Program-made: the position numbers and the translations under genes
Notes under the pieces: generated by a model
What the model was told of the DNA's origin: nothing
The model's input: the letters and a program-made list of their open reading frames with translations, nothing else
The model's database searches: none
Shown: positions 54,277 to 61,423 of the stretch, piece after piece
Position numbering within the stretch: the first letter of the stretch is position 1
Layout of the letters: the number at the start of each line of letters is the position of its first letter
Assembly: GCF_023516555.1 (NCBI RefSeq)
Contig: NZ_JAMGBD010000001.1
Coordinates: 124,001 to 188,000, forward strand
Source: Sphingomonas alba
Lineage (GTDB): Bacteria; Pseudomonadota; Alphaproteobacteria; Sphingomonadales; Sphingomonadaceae
Length of the DNA stretch: 64,000 nucleotides
Direction: 5' to 3'

Positions 54277-56331
54277 ATGCGGCCGGACATCCTCAATCCC
54301 CTGTTTGCCGAGGTAGAAGCGCTGCCCGGCGTTGGCCCGCAGGTCGCCAAGTCCCTGAAACGGCTCGATATCACCCGCGCCATCGATCTAGCCTTCCATT
54401 TGCCGACCGGAACGATTGAGCGCGTCCGGGCGCCCGAGGCCAGCGCCGCTTTGATTGGCCGCATCGTTGTCCTGGAATTGACCCCGTTCGAGACCCGGCA
54501 GGGCGGGCGCGGGCCCATGCGGGTCTTCACCAGCGACCGCGACGGCAACACCATAACGCTTGTTTATTTCAACAACCCAGGCTGGGCGAAGAAGCAGCTG
54601 CCGCTCGGTGAGACGAAGACCGTTGCCGGTAGGCTCGATGCCTATGGCGACGAATGGCAGATCGTGCACCCCGAAGTCCTGGGTGCCGGCAAGGCGGCCG
54701 ACTTGCCGCTCCGCGAGCCGGTCTATCCACTGACGGAAGGGATCGCCAACCGCCGGATGCGCGAGCTGGCGATTGCGGGCGTCGATCGTGCTCCGGATTT
54801 GCCCGAATGGATCGAACCGTCCGTGCTCTCGCGCCATGGTTGGCGCGATTGGCGCTCGTCCTTGGCCGAGGCACATTCAGAACCATTGGCAAACGACGTC
54901 CGTAACCGGTTGGCATATGACGAGATATTCGCAAATCAGCTGGTGCTGTTGCTGCTCCGGCAGGCCAGCCGTCGCAAGCGCACCAAGCCACTGCAGGGCG
55001 ATGGCCGCCTGACCGGCAAGCTCCAACTGCCATACAGCCTCACCGGTGCCCAGCGCCGGGTCACAGAGGAAATCCGCGGCGACATGGCCCAGTCCTCACC
55101 GATGTTGCGCCTGCTCCAGGGCGATGTCGGATCCGGCAAGACGCTCGTCGCCCTGCTGGCGATGCTCTCTGCCGTCGAAGCCGGCGCCCAGGCCGCCTTG
55201 CTCGCACCAACCGAGATTCTTGCCCGCCAGCACCATGCGACGCTGCTGAATCAGGTCGACAGCCTCGGCGTGCGCGTCGCCATCCTCACCGGCCGTGAGA
55301 AGGGCAAGGCGCGCGAAAGCGTCCTCATGGGCCTCGCCGACGGCTCGATCGACATCCTCGTCGGCACTCACGCCATTTTCCAGGAGAAGGTCGGTTACAA
55401 GAACCTCGGCCTCGCCGTGATCGACGAGCAGCATCGGTTCGGCGTTTCGCAGCGGCTGCTGCTCTCGTCGAAGGCCGAACACCCGCCGCACTTGCTCGTC
55501 ATGACGGCGACACCCATCCCGCGCACCCTGACCCTCACGCAATATGGCGAAATGGACGTCAGCCGGATCGATGAAATGCCGCCGGGCCGCACGCCTATCG
55601 AGACCCGAGTGATTTCGGACGAGCGCGTCGGCGACGTAGTCGATGGCCTCGCCCGCCACATCGCGTCCGGCGGCCAGGCCTATTGGGTCTGCCCGCTCGT
55701 GGAAGAGAGCGAGAAATCCGACGCCGCGGCGGCCGAAGCCCGCGCCGCCGTCCTTCGCCAGCGCTTTGGCTCCGACAAGGTCGGCCTCGTCCATGGCCGC
55801 ATGAAAGGGCCCGAAAAGGATGACGTCATGGCGTCATTCGCGTCCGGTAAGCTCGCCTTGCTCGTCGCCACGACCGTCATCGAGGTCGGCGTCGACGTCC
55901 CCAACGCGACCCTCATGATCATCGAAGGCGCCGAGCGCTTCGGCCTCGCCCAGCTTCATCAGCTTCGCGGCCGTGTCGGGCGCGGGGAGGGCAAGAGCAC
56001 CTGCCTCCTCCTCCGCGGCCAGCAACTCTCGGAGACGGGCAGGGCCCGCCTCGCCCTGATGCGCGAGACCAATGACGGCTTCCGCATCGCCGAGGAGGAT
56101 CTGCGGCTGCGCGGCCCCGGCGAAATCCTCGGTACCCGCCAGTCGGGCGAAGTCGGCTTCCGGCTCGCCACGCCAGAACAGGTCGCCGAGCTTGCCCCGA
56201 TCGCCACCAGCGACGCGCAATTGCTGCTCGACCGCGACGGCGGCCTCGACGGCCCGCGCGGCCAGGCGGCTCGCGTCTGCCTCTACCTTTTCGAACGGGA
56301 TGCGGCAGTCGGCTTGCTCAGGAGCGGGTAA
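54277..56331 (+). CDS. recG: ATP-dependent DNA helicase RecG
   Basis: A 684-residue helicase that remodels stalled forks. An N-terminal wedge (OB-fold) precedes the motor: Walker [18 protein letters not shown] near 283-299, motif [12 protein letters not shown], and TATPIPRTL. The late [13 protein letters not shown] is motif VI. Its last 14 bp overlap the convergent tyrS gene. Confidence 0.96.
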
Positions 56332-57547
56332 GCAGCCCGTGCTTCTTCTTGCCTAGGCTGATCTTCACCGGCTCCTCGGCTGTCGCCACCACTGCCATCG
56401 GATCCTTCACGACCTCGCCGTTCACCCGAACCGCGCCTTCGTCGATCTTGCGGCGGGCCTCGCCCTTGGAATCGACGAAACCAAGCCCGATCAGGATGGA
56501 GACGATCGGCAAGTCCGCATCGTCGGTCTCCAGCGTCGGCAAGTCCGCTCCGACGCCGCCACCCGCGAACGTCGCCTTCGCCGTCTCCTCGGCCGCCCGC
56601 GCGGCCTCTTCACCATGCAGCATCGCCGTCGCAGCGGTCGCCAGCGTCACCTTGGCGTCATTGATCGCCGCCCCGCCGGCACTGACCAGCGCCGCAATCT
56701 CGCCGAGTGGCAAATCGGTAAAGAGCTTCAGGAACCGCTCGACATCGGCGTCCTGCGTGTTCCGCCAGAATTGCCAGTAATCATAGGGGCTCAATTGCTC
56801 GGCATTCAGCCAGACCGCGCCCCTCGCGGTCTTGCCCATCTTGGCGCCGTCGGCGGTCGTCACCAGCGGCGTCGTGACGCCATAGACCTCCGTCCCGTCG
56901 ATCCGCCGCGATAGCTCGATGCCGTTGACGATATTCCCCCACTGGTCCGACCCGCCCATCTGCAGGCGGCACCCGGAGCGTCGGGAAAGCTCGAGGAAAT
57001 CATAGGCCTGGAGGATCATGTAATTGAATTCCAGGAACGTCAGCGGCTGCTCGCGATCCAGACGCAGCTTGACGCTGTCGAAGGTCAGCATGCGGTTGAT
57101 CGTGAAATGCCGGCCGACATCCCGCAGGAACGGGACATATTCCAGCTTCGACAGCCATTCGTCATTGTCGACCATGATCGCGTCGGTCGGGCCGTCGCCG
57201 AAGGTCAGGAAGCGCTCGAACACCCTGCGAATGCCGGCGATATTGGTCTGAATGGTTTCGTGGCTGAGCAGCTGGCGGCCTTCGTCCTTACCGCTGGGAT
57301 CGCCCACCTTGGTCGTCCCGCCGCCCATCAGCACGATCGGCTTGTGCCCGGCCTGCTGCAGCCGCCGAAGCTGCATGATTTGCACCAGGCTGCCGACATG
57401 GAGCGACGGCGCAGTGGCATCGAAGCCGATATAGCCAGGCACCACCTGCTTCGACGCCAGCGCATCCAGCGCCTCGGCATCGGTGACCTGGTGAATATAA
57501 CCACGCTCGTCGAGCAGCTTCAGGAGGGAGGATTGGTAACCGGACAT
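56318..57547 (-). CDS. tyrS: Tyrosyl-tRNA synthetase
   Basis: A 409-residue class I synthetase. The HIGH-like motif is SLHVGSLVQ near 49-57 and the KMSKS-like motif KMGKTARG near 237-244. A C-terminal S4 RNA-binding domain ([16 protein letters not shown]) is present. Lengths match the bacterial enzyme. Confidence 0.97.
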
Positions 57548-57583
57548 AGCTCTTCGGTTAGACGACCGAGTTCAAACCAACAA

Positions 57584-57612
57584 CCGTTCGTCCTGAGCTT
57601 GTCGAAGGACTG
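57584..57612 (+). repeat. REP-like hairpin, family 1, left copy (perfect inverted partner at 57912)
   Basis: A 29-bp unit whose hairpin TCCTGAG-CTTGT-CGAAGGA has a 7-bp stem with tandem G-A mismatches and the loop CTTGT. It lies between tyrS and the GIY-YIG gene. The same 29 bp occur inverted at 57912-57940. Flank CCGTTCG. Confidence 0.85.
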
Positions 57613-57633
57613 TCCTTCTGCCTACCAAAGAGC

Positions 57634-57978
57634 ATGACCTTCTGGGCTTACATGTTGCATTGCCGCGGCGGCTATTTCTACGCCGGTCATACCGAAGACT
57701 TGGAGTTGCGTGTCGCCCAGCATGAATCCGGCATGTTGCCGGGGTTTGCATCCGACCACTTGCCGGTCCACTTGGTCTGGTCTCAGGAATTCCCCACTCG
57801 CTACGAGGCCTTGGCCGTCGAGAGGCAGATCAAAGGGTGGAGTCGAGCCAAGAAACTGGCCCTCATCCAAGGCGACTGGCTGAAAATCTCTGCGCTGGCC
57901 AAAGGGAATGGCAGTCCTTCGACAAGCTCAGGACGAACGGATGTTGCGGAGACATCGGACGAGGGCCAGTGCAGCTAA
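57634..57978 (+). CDS. GIY-YIG nuclease-family protein with repeat-encoded tail
   Basis: A 114-residue protein with a single GIY-YIG domain. Y6 and YAG at 16-18 give the diagnostic pair of motifs, R26 and E63 are likely catalytic, and ERQIKGWSRAKK is a conserved late helix. Residues 93-103 (GSPSTSSGRTD) are translated from the inverted repeat copy at 57912-57940, which sits inside the gene's 3' end, so the tail comes from the repeat. The gene is thus bracketed by a 29-bp inverted repeat. No strong ribosome site. Overlaps the next gene by 10 bp. Role unknown; single-domain GIY-YIG proteins cut DNA. Confidence 0.8.
   Translation: MTFWAYMLHCRGGYFYAGHTEDLELRVAQHESGMLPGFASDHLPVHLVWSQEFPTRYEALAVERQIKGWSRAKKLALIQGDWLKISALAKGNGSPSTSSGRTDVAETSDEGQCS
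57912..57940 (-). repeat. REP-like hairpin, family 1, right copy
   Basis: Perfect inverted copy of 57584-57612. It lies inside the GIY-YIG coding region and encodes its C-terminal PSTSSGRTD segment. The loop on this strand is ACAAG. Confidence 0.85.
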
Positions 57979-58505
57979 ATCTCTCGCCCCATCCACAAAC
58001 GCCCCCGGAGGACCCCGACTTCAAAGTCTGGGCAAGTGCCGAGCTTGCGGCGGCCTTCGGTGCGGCGGCGACGCTAAACATCTGGTTCTGCGTGGGGGCA
58101 CCTGCATCCCGCTTCCTGCTTCCAGAAGCTACGGAGGAGGGGCGAGCGGACGAGCTCTGGAAGACGACCTGCTTCGAGGCATTTCTCCGCGCCGACGGCG
58201 ATTCCGCCTACCGTGAATGGAATTTCGCGCCTTCCGGGCAGTGGGCCGCCTATGACTTCACTGCACCGCGCGAAGGCATGACCAATGCTGACGTCGGCGC
58301 TCCGCCTTATGTGCGCGTGGAGGACAATCTGACCTGGTGGACGCTCGGCGCGACCATCGCCGTCGATGCGGGCCAAAGCTGGAACCTGGGCTTGAGCGCG
58401 GTGATTGAGGAGAAAGACGGCACCAAATCTTATTGGGCCCTGGCTCATTCGTCGGAGAGGCCGGACTTTCATCATCCCGATTGCTTCGTCGCCCAGCTTG
58501 CCTAG
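57969..58505 (+). CDS. DOMON-like domain protein
   Basis: A 178-residue protein starting at GTG 57969 after GAGGG, in the reading frame VQLNLSPHPQTPPED. It resembles the DOMON-like beta-sandwich proteins of sphingomonads (WFCVGAP, ELWKTTCFEAFL, YREWNFAPSGQW). Ligand is unknown; DOMON folds bind haem or sugars. It precedes the NamZ-type gene by 9 bp, so the two are probably co-expressed. It could act on cell-wall sugars, but this is inference. Confidence 0.7.
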   Translation: MQLNLSPHPQTPPEDPDFKVWASAELAAAFGAAATLNIWFCVGAPASRFLLPEATEEGRADELWKTTCFEAFLRADGDSAYREWNFAPSGQWAAYDFTAPREGMTNADVGAPPYVRVEDNLTWWTLGATIAVDAGQSWNLGLSAVIEEKDGTKSYWALAHSSERPDFHHPDCFVAQLA

Positions 58506-58514
58506 ACAGCGCAC

Positions 58515-59714
58515 ATGACCCTGTTCGGCATCGACCGGCTGCTCGCCGATCCTGAGCTTCGCAAACCCCTCGAAGGCAAGCGCGTCGCGCTCCTCGCGCA
58601 TCCCGCCAGCGTCACGAAGGACCTGACCCACAGCCTCGACGCCTTGGTCGCGGCGGGCGTGAACATCTCGGCGGTCTTCGGCCCGCAGCACGGCGTCCGT
58701 GGTGACCTCCAGGACAATATGATGGAGTCCCCGGACTTCACCGATCCCAAGTACGACGTCCCGGTCTTCAGCCTCTACGGAGAAGTCCGCCGCCCGACCG
58801 GCCAGTCGATGGGCACCTTCGACGTCATCCTGATCGACCTGCAGGACCTCGGCTGCCGCATCTACACCTACGTCACGACCTTGCTGTATATCCTCGAAGC
58901 AGCGGCCGAGCACGGCAAGACCGTCTGGGTGCTCGACCGCCCCAATCCCGCCGGCCGCCCCGTAGAAGGCACGGCCTTGCTTCCGGGCTGGGAAAGCTTC
59001 GTCGGCGCCGGTCCGATGGTCATGCGCCATGGCCTGACCCTGGGCGAAATGGGCCACTGGTTCATCCGCCACTTCAACCTCGACGTCGATTATCGCGTCA
59101 TCGAGATGCACGGTTGGCGGCCCGACAACGGTCCCGGCTTCGGCTGGCCCGAGGACCGCATCTGGATCAACCCATCCCCCAACGCCGCCAATCTCAACAT
59201 GGCCCGGGCCTATGCCGGCACCGTCATGCTGGAAGGCGCGACCTTGAGCGAGGGCAGGGGCACCACCCGCCCGCTGGAGCTGTTCGGCGCACCCGACATC
59301 GATGCGCTGGCAGTCATCAACGAAATGCACCGCCTCGCGCCCGATTGGCTCACCGGTTGCAAGCTCCGCGACATCTGGTTCCAGCCGACCTTCCACAAGC
59401 ATGTCGGCCAGCTCTGCAACGGTGTCCACATCCACGCCGAGGGCGGTTTCTACGACCACGCCGCCTTCCGCCCGTGGCGGCTGCAGGCCCTGGCCTTCAA
59501 GGCCATCCGCAACCTCCAGCCCGATTACGATCTCTGGCGCGATTTCGCTTACGAATATGTCTTCGACAAGCTGGCCATCGACGTCATCAACGGCGGCCCT
59601 GCGCTGCGTGAGTGGGTGGACGATGCCAACGCCGCGCCCGGCGACCTCGACGCGCAGGCCAGCGCCGACGAAACGGCTTGGATCGTCCAGACCAAGGACC
59701 TCCGCCTTTACTAA
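58515..59714 (+). CDS. namZ: NamZ-type exo-N-acetylmuramidase (DUF1343)
   Basis: A 399-residue DUF1343 protein. The signature FGPQHGVRGD near 55-64 and the LIDLQDLGCRIYTYVTT region near 96-112 match the family, of which characterised NamZ enzymes release terminal MurNAc from peptidoglycan fragments. No signal peptide is evident, so it may act in the cytosol or be exported by another route. The product would feed AmgK and MurU (32146-33887). Confidence 0.8.
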   Translation: MTLFGIDRLLADPELRKPLEGKRVALLAHPASVTKDLTHSLDALVAAGVNISAVFGPQHGVRGDLQDNMMESPDFTDPKYDVPVFSLYGEVRRPTGQSMGTFDVILIDLQDLGCRIYTYVTTLLYILEAAAEHGKTVWVLDRPNPAGRPVEGTALLPGWESFVGAGPMVMRHGLTLGEMGHWFIRHFNLDVDYRVIEMHGWRPDNGPGFGWPEDRIWINPSPNAANLNMARAYAGTVMLEGATLSEGRGTTRPLELFGAPDIDALAVINEMHRLAPDWLTGCKLRDIWFQPTFHKHVGQLCNGVHIHAEGGFYDHAAFRPWRLQALAFKAIRNLQPDYDLWRDFAYEYVFDKLAIDVINGGPALREWVDDANAAPGDLDAQASADETAWIVQTKDLRLY

Positions 59715-59719
59715 CCGTC

Positions 59720-59740
59720 ACCCTGAACTTGTTTCAGGGT
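59720..59740 (+). repeat. REP-like hairpin, family 2, first copy
   Basis: ACCCTGAA-CTTGT-TTCAGGGT is an 8-bp perfect stem with the CTTGT loop and 5' flank CCGTC. It lies just after the NamZ stop and could slow or stop transcription, but no T-run follows. Confidence 0.85.
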
Positions 59741-59774
59741 CCATTGCGACGAGGGCACTGCGGATCGAAAATGG

Positions 59775-59795
59775 ATGCTGAAACAAGTTCAGCAT
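59775..59795 (-). repeat. REP-like hairpin, family 2, inverted second copy
   Basis: ATGCTGAA-ACAAG-TTCAGCAT is an 8-bp stem; its other strand reads with the CTTGT loop and a GTCAT flank. It is inverted relative to 59720. Confidence 0.85.
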
Positions 59796-59813
59796 GACAT
59801 ACAGCGCTTATCT

Positions 59814-60068
59814 ATGACCACGACCAAGACTCTTCCCGGCGGCGTCGTCCATGACCTTCCTGACGATTTGCAGGACGCGCTGATCCGCGATCCGGCAGCA
59901 CTCGCGACCTGGCAGGACATCACCCCGCTCGCCCGCAACGAATGGATCTGCTGGGTCGAATCCGCGAAGAAATCAGAGACCCGAAGCAAGCGCATCACCT
60001 GGGGCTGCGAAAGCCTAAGCGAAGGCAAGCGCCGCCCCTGCTGTTGGCCGGGCTGCAAGCACCGCTGA
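59814..60068 (+). CDS. YdeI/OmpD-associated family C-terminal domain protein
   Basis: An 84-residue protein matching the small C-terminal OmdA domain of the YdeI family (PDDLQDALIRDPAALATW, RNEWICWVESAKKSETRSKR). Full-length YdeI relatives have an additional N-terminal domain, so this is a short, stand-alone form. The end (RRPCCWPGCKHR) is unusually Cys-rich. The ATG at 59814 follows the family-2 repeats; there is no strong ribosome site. Function unknown. Confidence 0.75.
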   Translation: MTTTKTLPGGVVHDLPDDLQDALIRDPAALATWQDITPLARNEWICWVESAKKSETRSKRITWGCESLSEGKRRPCCWPGCKHR

Positions 60069-60079
60069 GAACCGAAAGG

Positions 60080-60113
60080 CTAATGTCCGCTTTCCACCCA
60101 AAGCGGACATTAG
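60080..60113. repeat. Perfect 14-bp inverted repeat with 6-nt loop
   Basis: CTAATGTCCGCTTT (60080-60093) and AAAGCGGACATTAG (60100-60113) flank CCACCC. It starts 11 bp after the YdeI-like stop and is followed by the weakly T-rich ATTTCTCT, so it may act as a terminator. I recall similar dispersed repeats in alphaproteobacteria. The rest of 60114-60244 shows no gene. Confidence 0.85.
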
Positions 60114-60244
60114 ATTTCTCTGTCCTACAGCGCGCCGCCTGTGCCACCGAGCCGATGGCTCATTCGCATCGTTATGATCTGCTGCCCTCGCGTGCGCGCC
60201 CACGCGCGTGCGTTGGGGAGCGACCTTAGCGACCTTTCGGCACC

Positions 60245-61423
60245 TTAGCGCTTCCGGCTGAGCTCGCGCATTGCGTCGTCCAGCCCTTCGAGCGTCAGCG
60301 GATACATGCGGTCGTGCATCAGCTGCTTTATCAGCTGGGTCGAATAGCTGTGGCCCCAATATTGCTCGGCCGTCGGGTTGAGCCACACCGCGGCGGGATA
60401 GGTGGTGGTCAGCCGGTCGATCCAAACCGCGCCGGCCTCTTCGTTCATATGCTCGACCGACCCGCCTGCATGGGTGATCTCATAGGGGCTCATCGCCGCG
60501 TCGCCGACGATCACGAGCTTATGGTCGTGGCCGAACTTGTGCATGACGTCGAAGGTCGGCGTCCGCTCGGCGAACCGCCGCCGGTTCTCCTTCCACACGC
60601 CCTCGTAAATGCAATTGTGGAAGTAGAAATGCTCGAGATGCTTGAACTCGGTCTTGGCGGCCGAGAACAATTCCTCGCAGAGCCGGACGTGCCCGTCCAT
60701 CGAACCGCCGATGTCGAGGAAAAGCAGCACCTTCACCGCATTGTGCCGCTCCGGCCGCATATGGACGTCGAGCCAGCCCTGCCGCGCGGTGCCGTCGATG
60801 GTCGCGTCGAGGTCGAGCTCATCCGCCGCGCCCTCGCGGGCGAAGCGCCTTAGCCGCCGCAGCGCCACCTTGATGTTGCGCGTCCCGATCTCGCGGCTTG
60901 AGTCTAGGTCCTTGAACTCGCGCTTTTCCCAGACCTTGAGCGCCCGGCCGTGCTTGCCCGGACCGCCGATCCGAACGCCTTCCGGATTATAGCCGCCATG
61001 GCCGAAGGGGGAGGTGCCGCCGGTGCCGATCCACTTCGATCCGCCCTGGTGCCGGCCCTGCTGCTCCTCCAGCCGCTGCTTCAGGGCCTCCATAATCTCG
61101 TCCCAGGAGCCGAGCGACTTGATCGCCTCCATCTGCTCGGGCGTCAGGTAGAGTTCGGCCACCAGTTTCAGCCAATCTTCGGGGATCGCCTTGGCCGGGT
61201 CCTCCATCTCCTGGAGCACGCCCTTGAACACTTCGCCGAAGATACGGTCGAAGCGGTCGAGCATCGTCTCGTCGTGAACGAAGACGGAGCGGGCGAGATA
61301 ATAGAATTGCTCGGGCTCAGCGGCGATGACCTCGGCATCCATCGCTTCGAGCAGCAGCAAATGCTCCTTCAGCGACGCGGGAATGCCGCCTTTGCGCAAA
61401 GCCTCGACGAAGGAGATGAACAT
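60245..61423 (-). CDS. CoxE-like VWA-domain protein
   Basis: A 392-residue protein with an N-terminal helical region (1-190) and a C-terminal von Willebrand A-type domain. The MIDAS motif reads LFLDIGGSMDG, so the usual DxSxS is DxGxS. Such proteins act with MoxR ATPases in metal-cofactor insertion or complex maturation; the MoxR gene is at 63054. The ATG at 61423 starts MFISFVEALRKGG, the typical opening. Upstream lie two family-3 repeats and the chemoreceptor gene. Confidence 0.82.
   Translation of the reverse strand: MFISFVEALRKGGIPASLKEHLLLLEAMDAEVIAAEPEQFYYLARSVFVHDETMLDRFDRIFGEVFKGVLQEMEDPAKAIPEDWLKLVAELYLTPEQMEAIKSLGSWDEIMEALKQRLEEQQGRHQGGSKWIGTGGTSPFGHGGYNPEGVRIGGPGKHGRALKVWEKREFKDLDSSREIGTRNIKVALRRLRRFAREGAADELDLDATIDGTARQGWLDVHMRPERHNAVKVLLFLDIGGSMDGHVRLCEELFSAAKTEFKHLEHFYFHNCIYEGVWKENRRRFAERTPTFDVMHKFGHDHKLVIVGDAAMSPYEITHAGGSVEHMNEEAGAVWIDRLTTTYPAAVWLNPTAEQYWGHSYSTQLIKQLMHDRMYPLTLEGLDDAMRELSRKR

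Follow-up and report, generated by a model that had tools for sequence, protein, structure and literature searches.

The window, which is the whole 64,000-nucleotide stretch of Sphingomonas alba DNA analyzed here, contains a small gene encoding a single-domain GIY-YIG nuclease that is associated with two inverted REP sequences. The features of the locus, in window coordinates, are as follows.

56318-57547, minus strand: divergent gene, presumably tyrS-like, the neighbor on one side of the insertion region
57548-57968, no strand: insertion region, 421 bp between the conserved gene and the start of the tyrS-like gene
57584-57612, minus strand: left REP of alpha type, a perfect inverted copy of 57912-57940, with its CCGTTCG end at 57584 facing outward
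57634-57978, plus strand: single-domain GIY-YIG nuclease gene, 114 amino acids, the domain being residues 1-91
57912-57940, plus strand: right REP, translated in the nuclease frame as PSTSSGRTD
57969-58505, plus strand: conserved gene, the other neighbor, with the start codon chosen by us

The two repeats are identical as inverted copies at 29 of 29 bases, as the sequence-only reading of this DNA had claimed, and complementarity at a level of 82% extends over 56 nt (57563-57618 with 57906-57961). Chance pairing is excluded because the 24-nt core of the repeat, with three or fewer mismatches allowed, occurs at two sites in the window versus a mean of 0.00 in 100 shuffles. The in-frame translation of the right copy, likewise claimed, holds, and the C-terminal tail of the nuclease (...SPSTSSGRTDV...) is encoded by this REP together with the DNA beyond it. 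The gene had also been described as exactly bracketed, which is not the case. The right REP lies inside the open reading frame, which continues 38 bp past it, and the repeats thus flank the catalytic domain rather than the whole gene. The repeat ends are CCGTTCG...CTG, and folding predicts a weak hairpin whose stem is 5 bp long and whose unpaired CCGTTC end points outward. Its energy as calculated with ViennaRNA is -2.5 kcal/mol versus -9.0 kcal/mol for one of the CGTC-tagged REPs described below, and this weakness counts against the mobile-unit reading proposed here. No Rfam family was matched in a search of window positions 56000-61000, and no Pfam model was matched by the conserved gene next to the nuclease.

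A 27-mer of the repeat, again with three or fewer mismatches, is present in four copies in the 2,507,338-base genome, two of which are at this locus. Of the further copies, one is located between two genes that we take to be nuo-like, beside a second, diverged repeat, and the other (L007, 2866-2889) is positioned in frame within a 291-residue open reading frame, where it reads SVRPELVEG and resembles the RPE insertions of Rickettsia genes. With only four copies in its own genome, repeat copy number does not explain the association with the nuclease, a possibility that had been raised at the outset. The window also contains, at 59716-59799, a gene-less CGTC-type REP dimer with its tags outward. 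Its two repeats are the sole copies of their type in the genome at three or fewer mismatches.

Residues 4-74 of the window protein match PF01541 with a score of 47.5 bits (cut-off 22.6). This GIY-YIG domain is the sole Pfam match of the gene enclosed by the REPs, there is no HUH Y1 (IS200/IS605-type) transposase between them, and no NCBIfam model matched the protein. The catalytic residues, by the usual assignment in the family two tyrosines, an arginine, a histidine, and a glutamate, are nearly invariant in the alignment. Arg 26 is found in all rows, His 30 and Glu 63 are missing from one, and Tyr 16 is missing from two, these groups of rows partly overlapping. The median dN/dS is 0.12 across the 123 pairs that could be used, out of 330 non-independent pairs, and the sequences indicate a nuclease under purifying selection with its catalytic residues intact. 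AlphaFold2 modeled residues 1-91 confidently, with a pLDDT of 95.7. The solved folds closest to the model are the UPF0213 proteins, followed by the branched-DNA nuclease SLX1, and the closest by both sequence and fold are of the UPF0213/YhbQ-type (1zg2 and 1ywl). In the protein tree the window protein falls outside the UPF0213 branch, the 14 UPF0213-type rows forming a branch of their own (SH-aLRT 99). Given that the nuclease has no second domain, recognition of the REP would have to reside in the GIY-YIG fold itself.

A search for relatives in 149 genomes of the family revealed a clear gap between 70 places scoring at least 82 bits, designated clade A, and the remainder at 56 bits or below. 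All 70 clade A loci and the 20 next best were inspected; two rows lying between these groups, a broken copy from the genome of the window and a copy at a contig edge, were skipped. A locus was considered bracketed when an inverted repeat scoring at least 15 was found within its 180-bp flanks. By this measure 57 of the 70 clade A genes are bracketed, and the 13 below threshold count against a mobile unit. The next-best group, clade B, was discarded as a negative control, since 17 of its 20 loci proved to be bracketed by a different repeat family, the CGTC-tagged REPs, and consequently displaced windows and UPF0213 genes were employed as controls. When 30 loci with long flanks were examined, 27 were bracketed at the gene, versus none of 177 windows of the same shape displaced by 700-1300 bp. 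Shuffled flanks reached a score of 15 in 0 of 120 cases. Flanks taken from different clade A loci and cross-paired still reached it in 33 of 120 cases, as repeat types are shared by many loci. A phylum-level search of 249 genomes provided 25 further loci. Seven of nine clade A-like genes among them are bracketed, some by other repeats, as are both of the clade B-like genes. The remaining 14 are UPF0213-type genes, of the type nearest to the window protein among solved sequences and folds, and none of them is bracketed.

The clade B brackets are CGTCATTCCCGCG-, GTCATTGCGAG-, and GTCATCCTGAACTTG-type repeats, which fit a CGTC tag, an 8-bp stem, and a CCAG tail, and they match the CGTC-tagged REPs surveyed by Di Nocera et al. 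in 2013 (PMC3733652). The family, defined by an unpaired CGTC at one end, a stem of 8-9 bp, and a CCA-like tail, includes the Rickettsia repeats RPE-4 and RPE-6 and the Neisseria repeat dRS3, which is CGTC-1, and the survey reports no transposase associated with it (PMC3733652). The window repeat, with its CCGTTC end and 5-bp stem, lies outside this family. A wider clade B sample was drawn from a scan of GTDB contigs and consists of 80 named loci, the best 80 of 580 relatives. Brackets are present at 57 of these 80, versus 2 of 291 displaced windows, and the 23 that fall below threshold again count against a mobile unit. The named loci include members from sphingomonads, Rhodanobacter, Pseudoxanthomonas, Silvimonas, deltaproteobacterial MAGs, and N. 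gonorrhoeae. The tags of the 57 bracketed loci face outward in 39, inward in 8, and both ways in 2, with 8 unclassified; the eight with inward tags only likewise speak against the mobile-unit reading. In one deltaproteobacterial MAG (G436) the REP dimers are mostly 43 bp start-to-start with their tags inward, and the tags of its nuclease bracket (L193) face outward. At three Sphingomonas loci (L158, L163, and L170) the nuclease is bracketed by CGTC-type repeats that are doubled and nested, with complementarity over long stretches.

The association was also approached from the repeats. Among 298 genomes, 23 contain inverted alpha-REP pairs separated by 305-334 bp, at 25 places in total, and all 23 places that were fetched enclose a clade A nuclease. 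Many of these loci had already come up in the nuclease search, and eight of the genomes are new. Pairs at 405-434 bp occur at three places, and at one of these an already known nuclease has an additional REP. CGTC pairs at 310-341 bp were found at 21 places, 19 of which enclose a clade B nuclease, the other two being REP clusters without one. The nuclease is the sole gene type seen inside gene-size pairs, although, inasmuch as the REP sequence and spacing patterns were derived from nuclease loci, this result addresses only the content of such pairs. The CGTC pattern is present in 3 to 227 copies in eight clade B genomes, the highest number being that of N. gonorrhoeae. Such abundance, together with the scores of the cross-paired flanks, could suggest that REPs simply land beside many small genes and that the nuclease is unremarkable among them. 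That explanation is close to refuted by the displaced windows of both clades, by the unbracketed UPF0213 genes, and by what the repeat pairs enclose. The claim that nuclease and repeat travel together is supported by the bracketing of clade A, by its displaced windows, and by the alpha-REP pairs.

The sequence-only reading had further asked whether the flanking repeats co-vary with the nuclease clade, and they do. In a tree of 195 proteins, based on a short alignment with many unsupported forks, clade B is separated by a branch with an SH-aLRT of 98. Three REP classes assigned to 119 rows require 9 changes on this tree versus a minimum of 39 in 1000 shuffles, and on the basis of these sequences the repeat class follows the nuclease tree. 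One clade B row was scored as beta by motif, and its arms also contain a CGTC sequence. Within the alpha repeats the head (CGTTCG or CGCTCA) requires 3 changes, with a minimum of 6 in 300 shuffles. A division into alpha and beta by loose motifs was abandoned, as it carried no tree signal (10 changes; shuffles 7 to 13). With stricter motifs 8 changes are required versus a shuffled minimum of 9, a weak and rule-dependent result of which the three-class result is independent. Seven genomes containing both clades were compared. Five pair the clade A nuclease with a clade A-type repeat and the clade B nuclease with CGTC; in the remaining two the clade B repeat is degenerate. Two clade A repeats in this comparison (L025 and L038) were judged alpha-like by eye. 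In the genome of the window itself, each of the three single-domain GIY-YIG genes has a bracket, and the repeat differs from gene to gene. The second clade A nuclease (C1:636286-636554, L004/L005) is split by a frameshift and lies between beta-type REPs, and a clade B-like nuclease (C1:995206-995439, L001) lies within a degenerate CGTC-like repeat. Around the long GIY-YIG gene, which we take to be uvrC, a search with the alpha REP motif revealed no alpha REP.

The unit is laid out like a MITE or a short insertion sequence, and GIY-YIG enzymes are not known to perform strand transfer on their own. The REPs might accordingly be terminal repeats moved by a RAYT or IS transposase, with the nuclease gene carried along. 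This is quite improbable given that the repeat class tracks the nuclease tree, that genes other than the nuclease were not seen within gene-size REP pairs, and that the 2013 survey linked no transposase gene to the CGTC REPs (PMC3733652).

The behavior of the unit at orthologous sites was examined in two settings. At the tyrS-adjacent site, 20 congeneric loci were read. Three contain the nuclease and three contain CGTC-type dimers; 11 have a gap of 45-65 bp, one has a gap of 81 bp, and two have longer DNA of another kind. For a site in Sphingopyxis the left flank was located in 59 of 60 genomes, once as a short, weak match, and 20 loci were read. Two of these (L228 and L232) contain a full-length nuclease with REPs and three (L234, L238, and L241) a shortened nuclease. 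REP dimers without the gene are present at, for example, L230, L243, and L245. At L237 there is a gap of 8 bp that may include a scar of a REP end, and several others contain unrelated DNA. Presence and absence at orthologous sites, the pattern looked for in a mobile element, is thus found at both sites, and the Sphingopyxis states would form the series expected from a mobile unit decaying to REP dimers, if the direction of change was that of decay. No exact junction or target duplication was resolved in the congeneric and Sphingopyxis loci read, the junctions being too diverged, and this counts against the mobile-unit reading. At the Sphingopyxis intergenic site of L242 a CGTC-like dimer lies beside a clade A beta-type REP dimer.

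Insertion into palindromes was considered, and the flanks of the elements display a modest excess of complementarity that does not exceed all shuffles in the CGTC dimers and is absent in the CCG dimers. Over the first 12 positions outside the tags the count, taken over related and thus non-independent loci, is 257 for CGTC elements (shuffled maximum 242) and 272 for CCG elements (maximum 260). For the dimers the corresponding counts are 229 for CGTC (shuffled maximum 230) and 60 for CCG (mean 66; 18 rows). A pyrimidine-rich shoulder extends symmetrically for ~11 nt outside both tags in CGTC and CCG elements, and in the nuclease elements the base directly adjoining the CGTC tag is T or C in ~92%.

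GIY-YIG homing enzymes are well known, and occupation of one tyrS-adjacent site in 3 of 20 congeneric loci could reflect a free-standing endonuclease that cuts the empty site and is copied into it, the REPs being a hotspot or a scar. A selfish gene of this type is very improbable here. The contexts of the relatives clearly differ (tyrS-adjacent, TrmJ-fused, RluD-type-fused, and JAB-fused), and the gene is bracketed by REPs whose sequences co-vary with it.

The TrmJ fusions bear on another explanation, namely that a host nuclease trims or controls REPs as hairpins or cruciforms, with its own REPs being autoregulatory and REPs in general spreading by other means. Seventeen of the 70 clade A genes (L024, L036, and 15 more) are fused in frame to a downstream open reading frame that we take to be TrmJ-like from its motif; a SpoU methylase domain was confirmed in the one such fusion examined. 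Only 9 of the 17 are bracketed, and with 8 unbracketed some copies appear to be resident. The low dN/dS and the small number of REP copies in the genome would also suit such a housekeeping role. It is nonetheless unlikely in view of the 48 of 53 unfused clade A genes that are bracketed, the patchy occurrence at orthologous sites, and the different repeats of the three single-domain copies in one genome. At L024 a presumably nrdR-like reading frame lies immediately upstream of the fused nuclease, and other reading frames continue, at L010 into a pseudouridine synthase and at L011 into a JAB domain.

We favor, with a probability of roughly 0.7, the reading in which the gene encodes a REP-dedicated GIY-YIG endonuclease that forms a mobile unit with its two REPs and spreads REP-bounded DNA. 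It draws on bracketing and its specificity, on the content of the REP pairs, on co-variation, on presence and absence, on apparent deletion derivatives, and on intact catalytic residues under purifying selection, all of them features of the sequences, as well as on a fold near that of SLX1, and it suggests that REPs spread by way of the protein binding and cutting them. The unit would be ~360 bp in length, consisting of the nuclease gene and two flanking REPs with their unpaired tags outward. The small protein would recognize REPs of its own type, probably when these are folded into a hairpin or cruciform, and would cut or nick at the REP ends. To our knowledge, GIY-YIG enzymes hydrolyze DNA without joining strands, and hence insertion would have to be carried out by something else. 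Host replication or repair might copy or capture the REP-bounded DNA at new sites, and internal deletion might leave bare REP dimers as non-autonomous passengers, much as MITEs are to IS elements.

The layout resembles that of the RAYT, REPtron, and REPIN systems in that a single enzyme gene is positioned between inverted REPs with REP-specific partners and gene-less REP dimers are numerous. RAYT systems, however, employ an HUH Y1 transposase and GTAG REPs, whereas here the enzyme is a GIY-YIG nuclease of ~90 residues and the REPs are of the CGTC- or CCGTTCG-type, the GTAG end being absent from both the window and the clade B repeats. With a different class of nuclease, the chemistry must differ from that of REPtrons despite the similar layout. 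The suggestion of a candidate REP enzyme distinct from RAYT is supported by the specific bracketing and by a repeat class that follows the clade. GIY-YIG nucleases also serve selfish DNA in homing endonucleases and Penelope-like retroelements; the present unit differs from these in its REP ends and in having no intron, intein, reverse transcriptase, or second DNA-binding domain. Like MITEs, the dimers are short elements with inverted ends that are not autonomous and derive from a longer, coding one, but their ends are REPs and the partner enzyme is no known transposase. No paper connecting GIY-YIG proteins with REPs was found in a literature search of incomplete coverage (preprints absent, few subscription journals), and searching it for the tail peptides likewise gave no paper. 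As that search was incomplete, the GIY-YIG/REP unit is only provisionally regarded as a new kind of element.

A broader proposal, to which we would give even odds, is that REP-ended DNA is spread by a single hydrolytic GIY-YIG nuclease through the cutting of REP hairpins, with host repair performing the insertion and each nuclease lineage having its own REP specificity. The nuclease would then supply the missing driver of the CGTC REPs (including Neisseria dRS3 and perhaps the Rickettsia RPEs) and of the sphingomonad CCGTTCG-type REPs. Such a unit would represent a further design of bacterial mobile element, one that lacks a transposase, an integrase, and a reverse transcriptase of its own. 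The enzyme would be a specific candidate for the spreader of a widespread REP class, for which matched pairs of enzyme and repeat, and naturally occurring deletion derivatives, are available. If this is correct, bacteria evolved the spread of short repeats at least twice, with nucleases that are unrelated, and a family of compact nucleases with numerous natural specificities for repeats is open to study.

The proposal would also explain the tails STSSGRT, LRQAQDER, and VRPELVEG in reading frames crossing REPs as translated repeats. A tail of the STSSGRT-type had been expected on many GIY-YIG proteins of unrelated sphingomonads and xanthomonads. No STSSGRT-type nuclease was seen among the xanthomonad-type loci found (Rhodanobacter, Pseudoxanthomonas, and Luteimonas), which belong to clade B, the sister clade, and have CGTC repeats. 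Among 50 loci with a recognized right REP, the PSTS frame is read in 31, and in 18 the open reading frame ends before the end of the REP. The tail was therefore rejected as a required feature. Matches to the nuclease were found in 19 phage records, each below 60% identity among the matches listed, and in 37 plasmid records.
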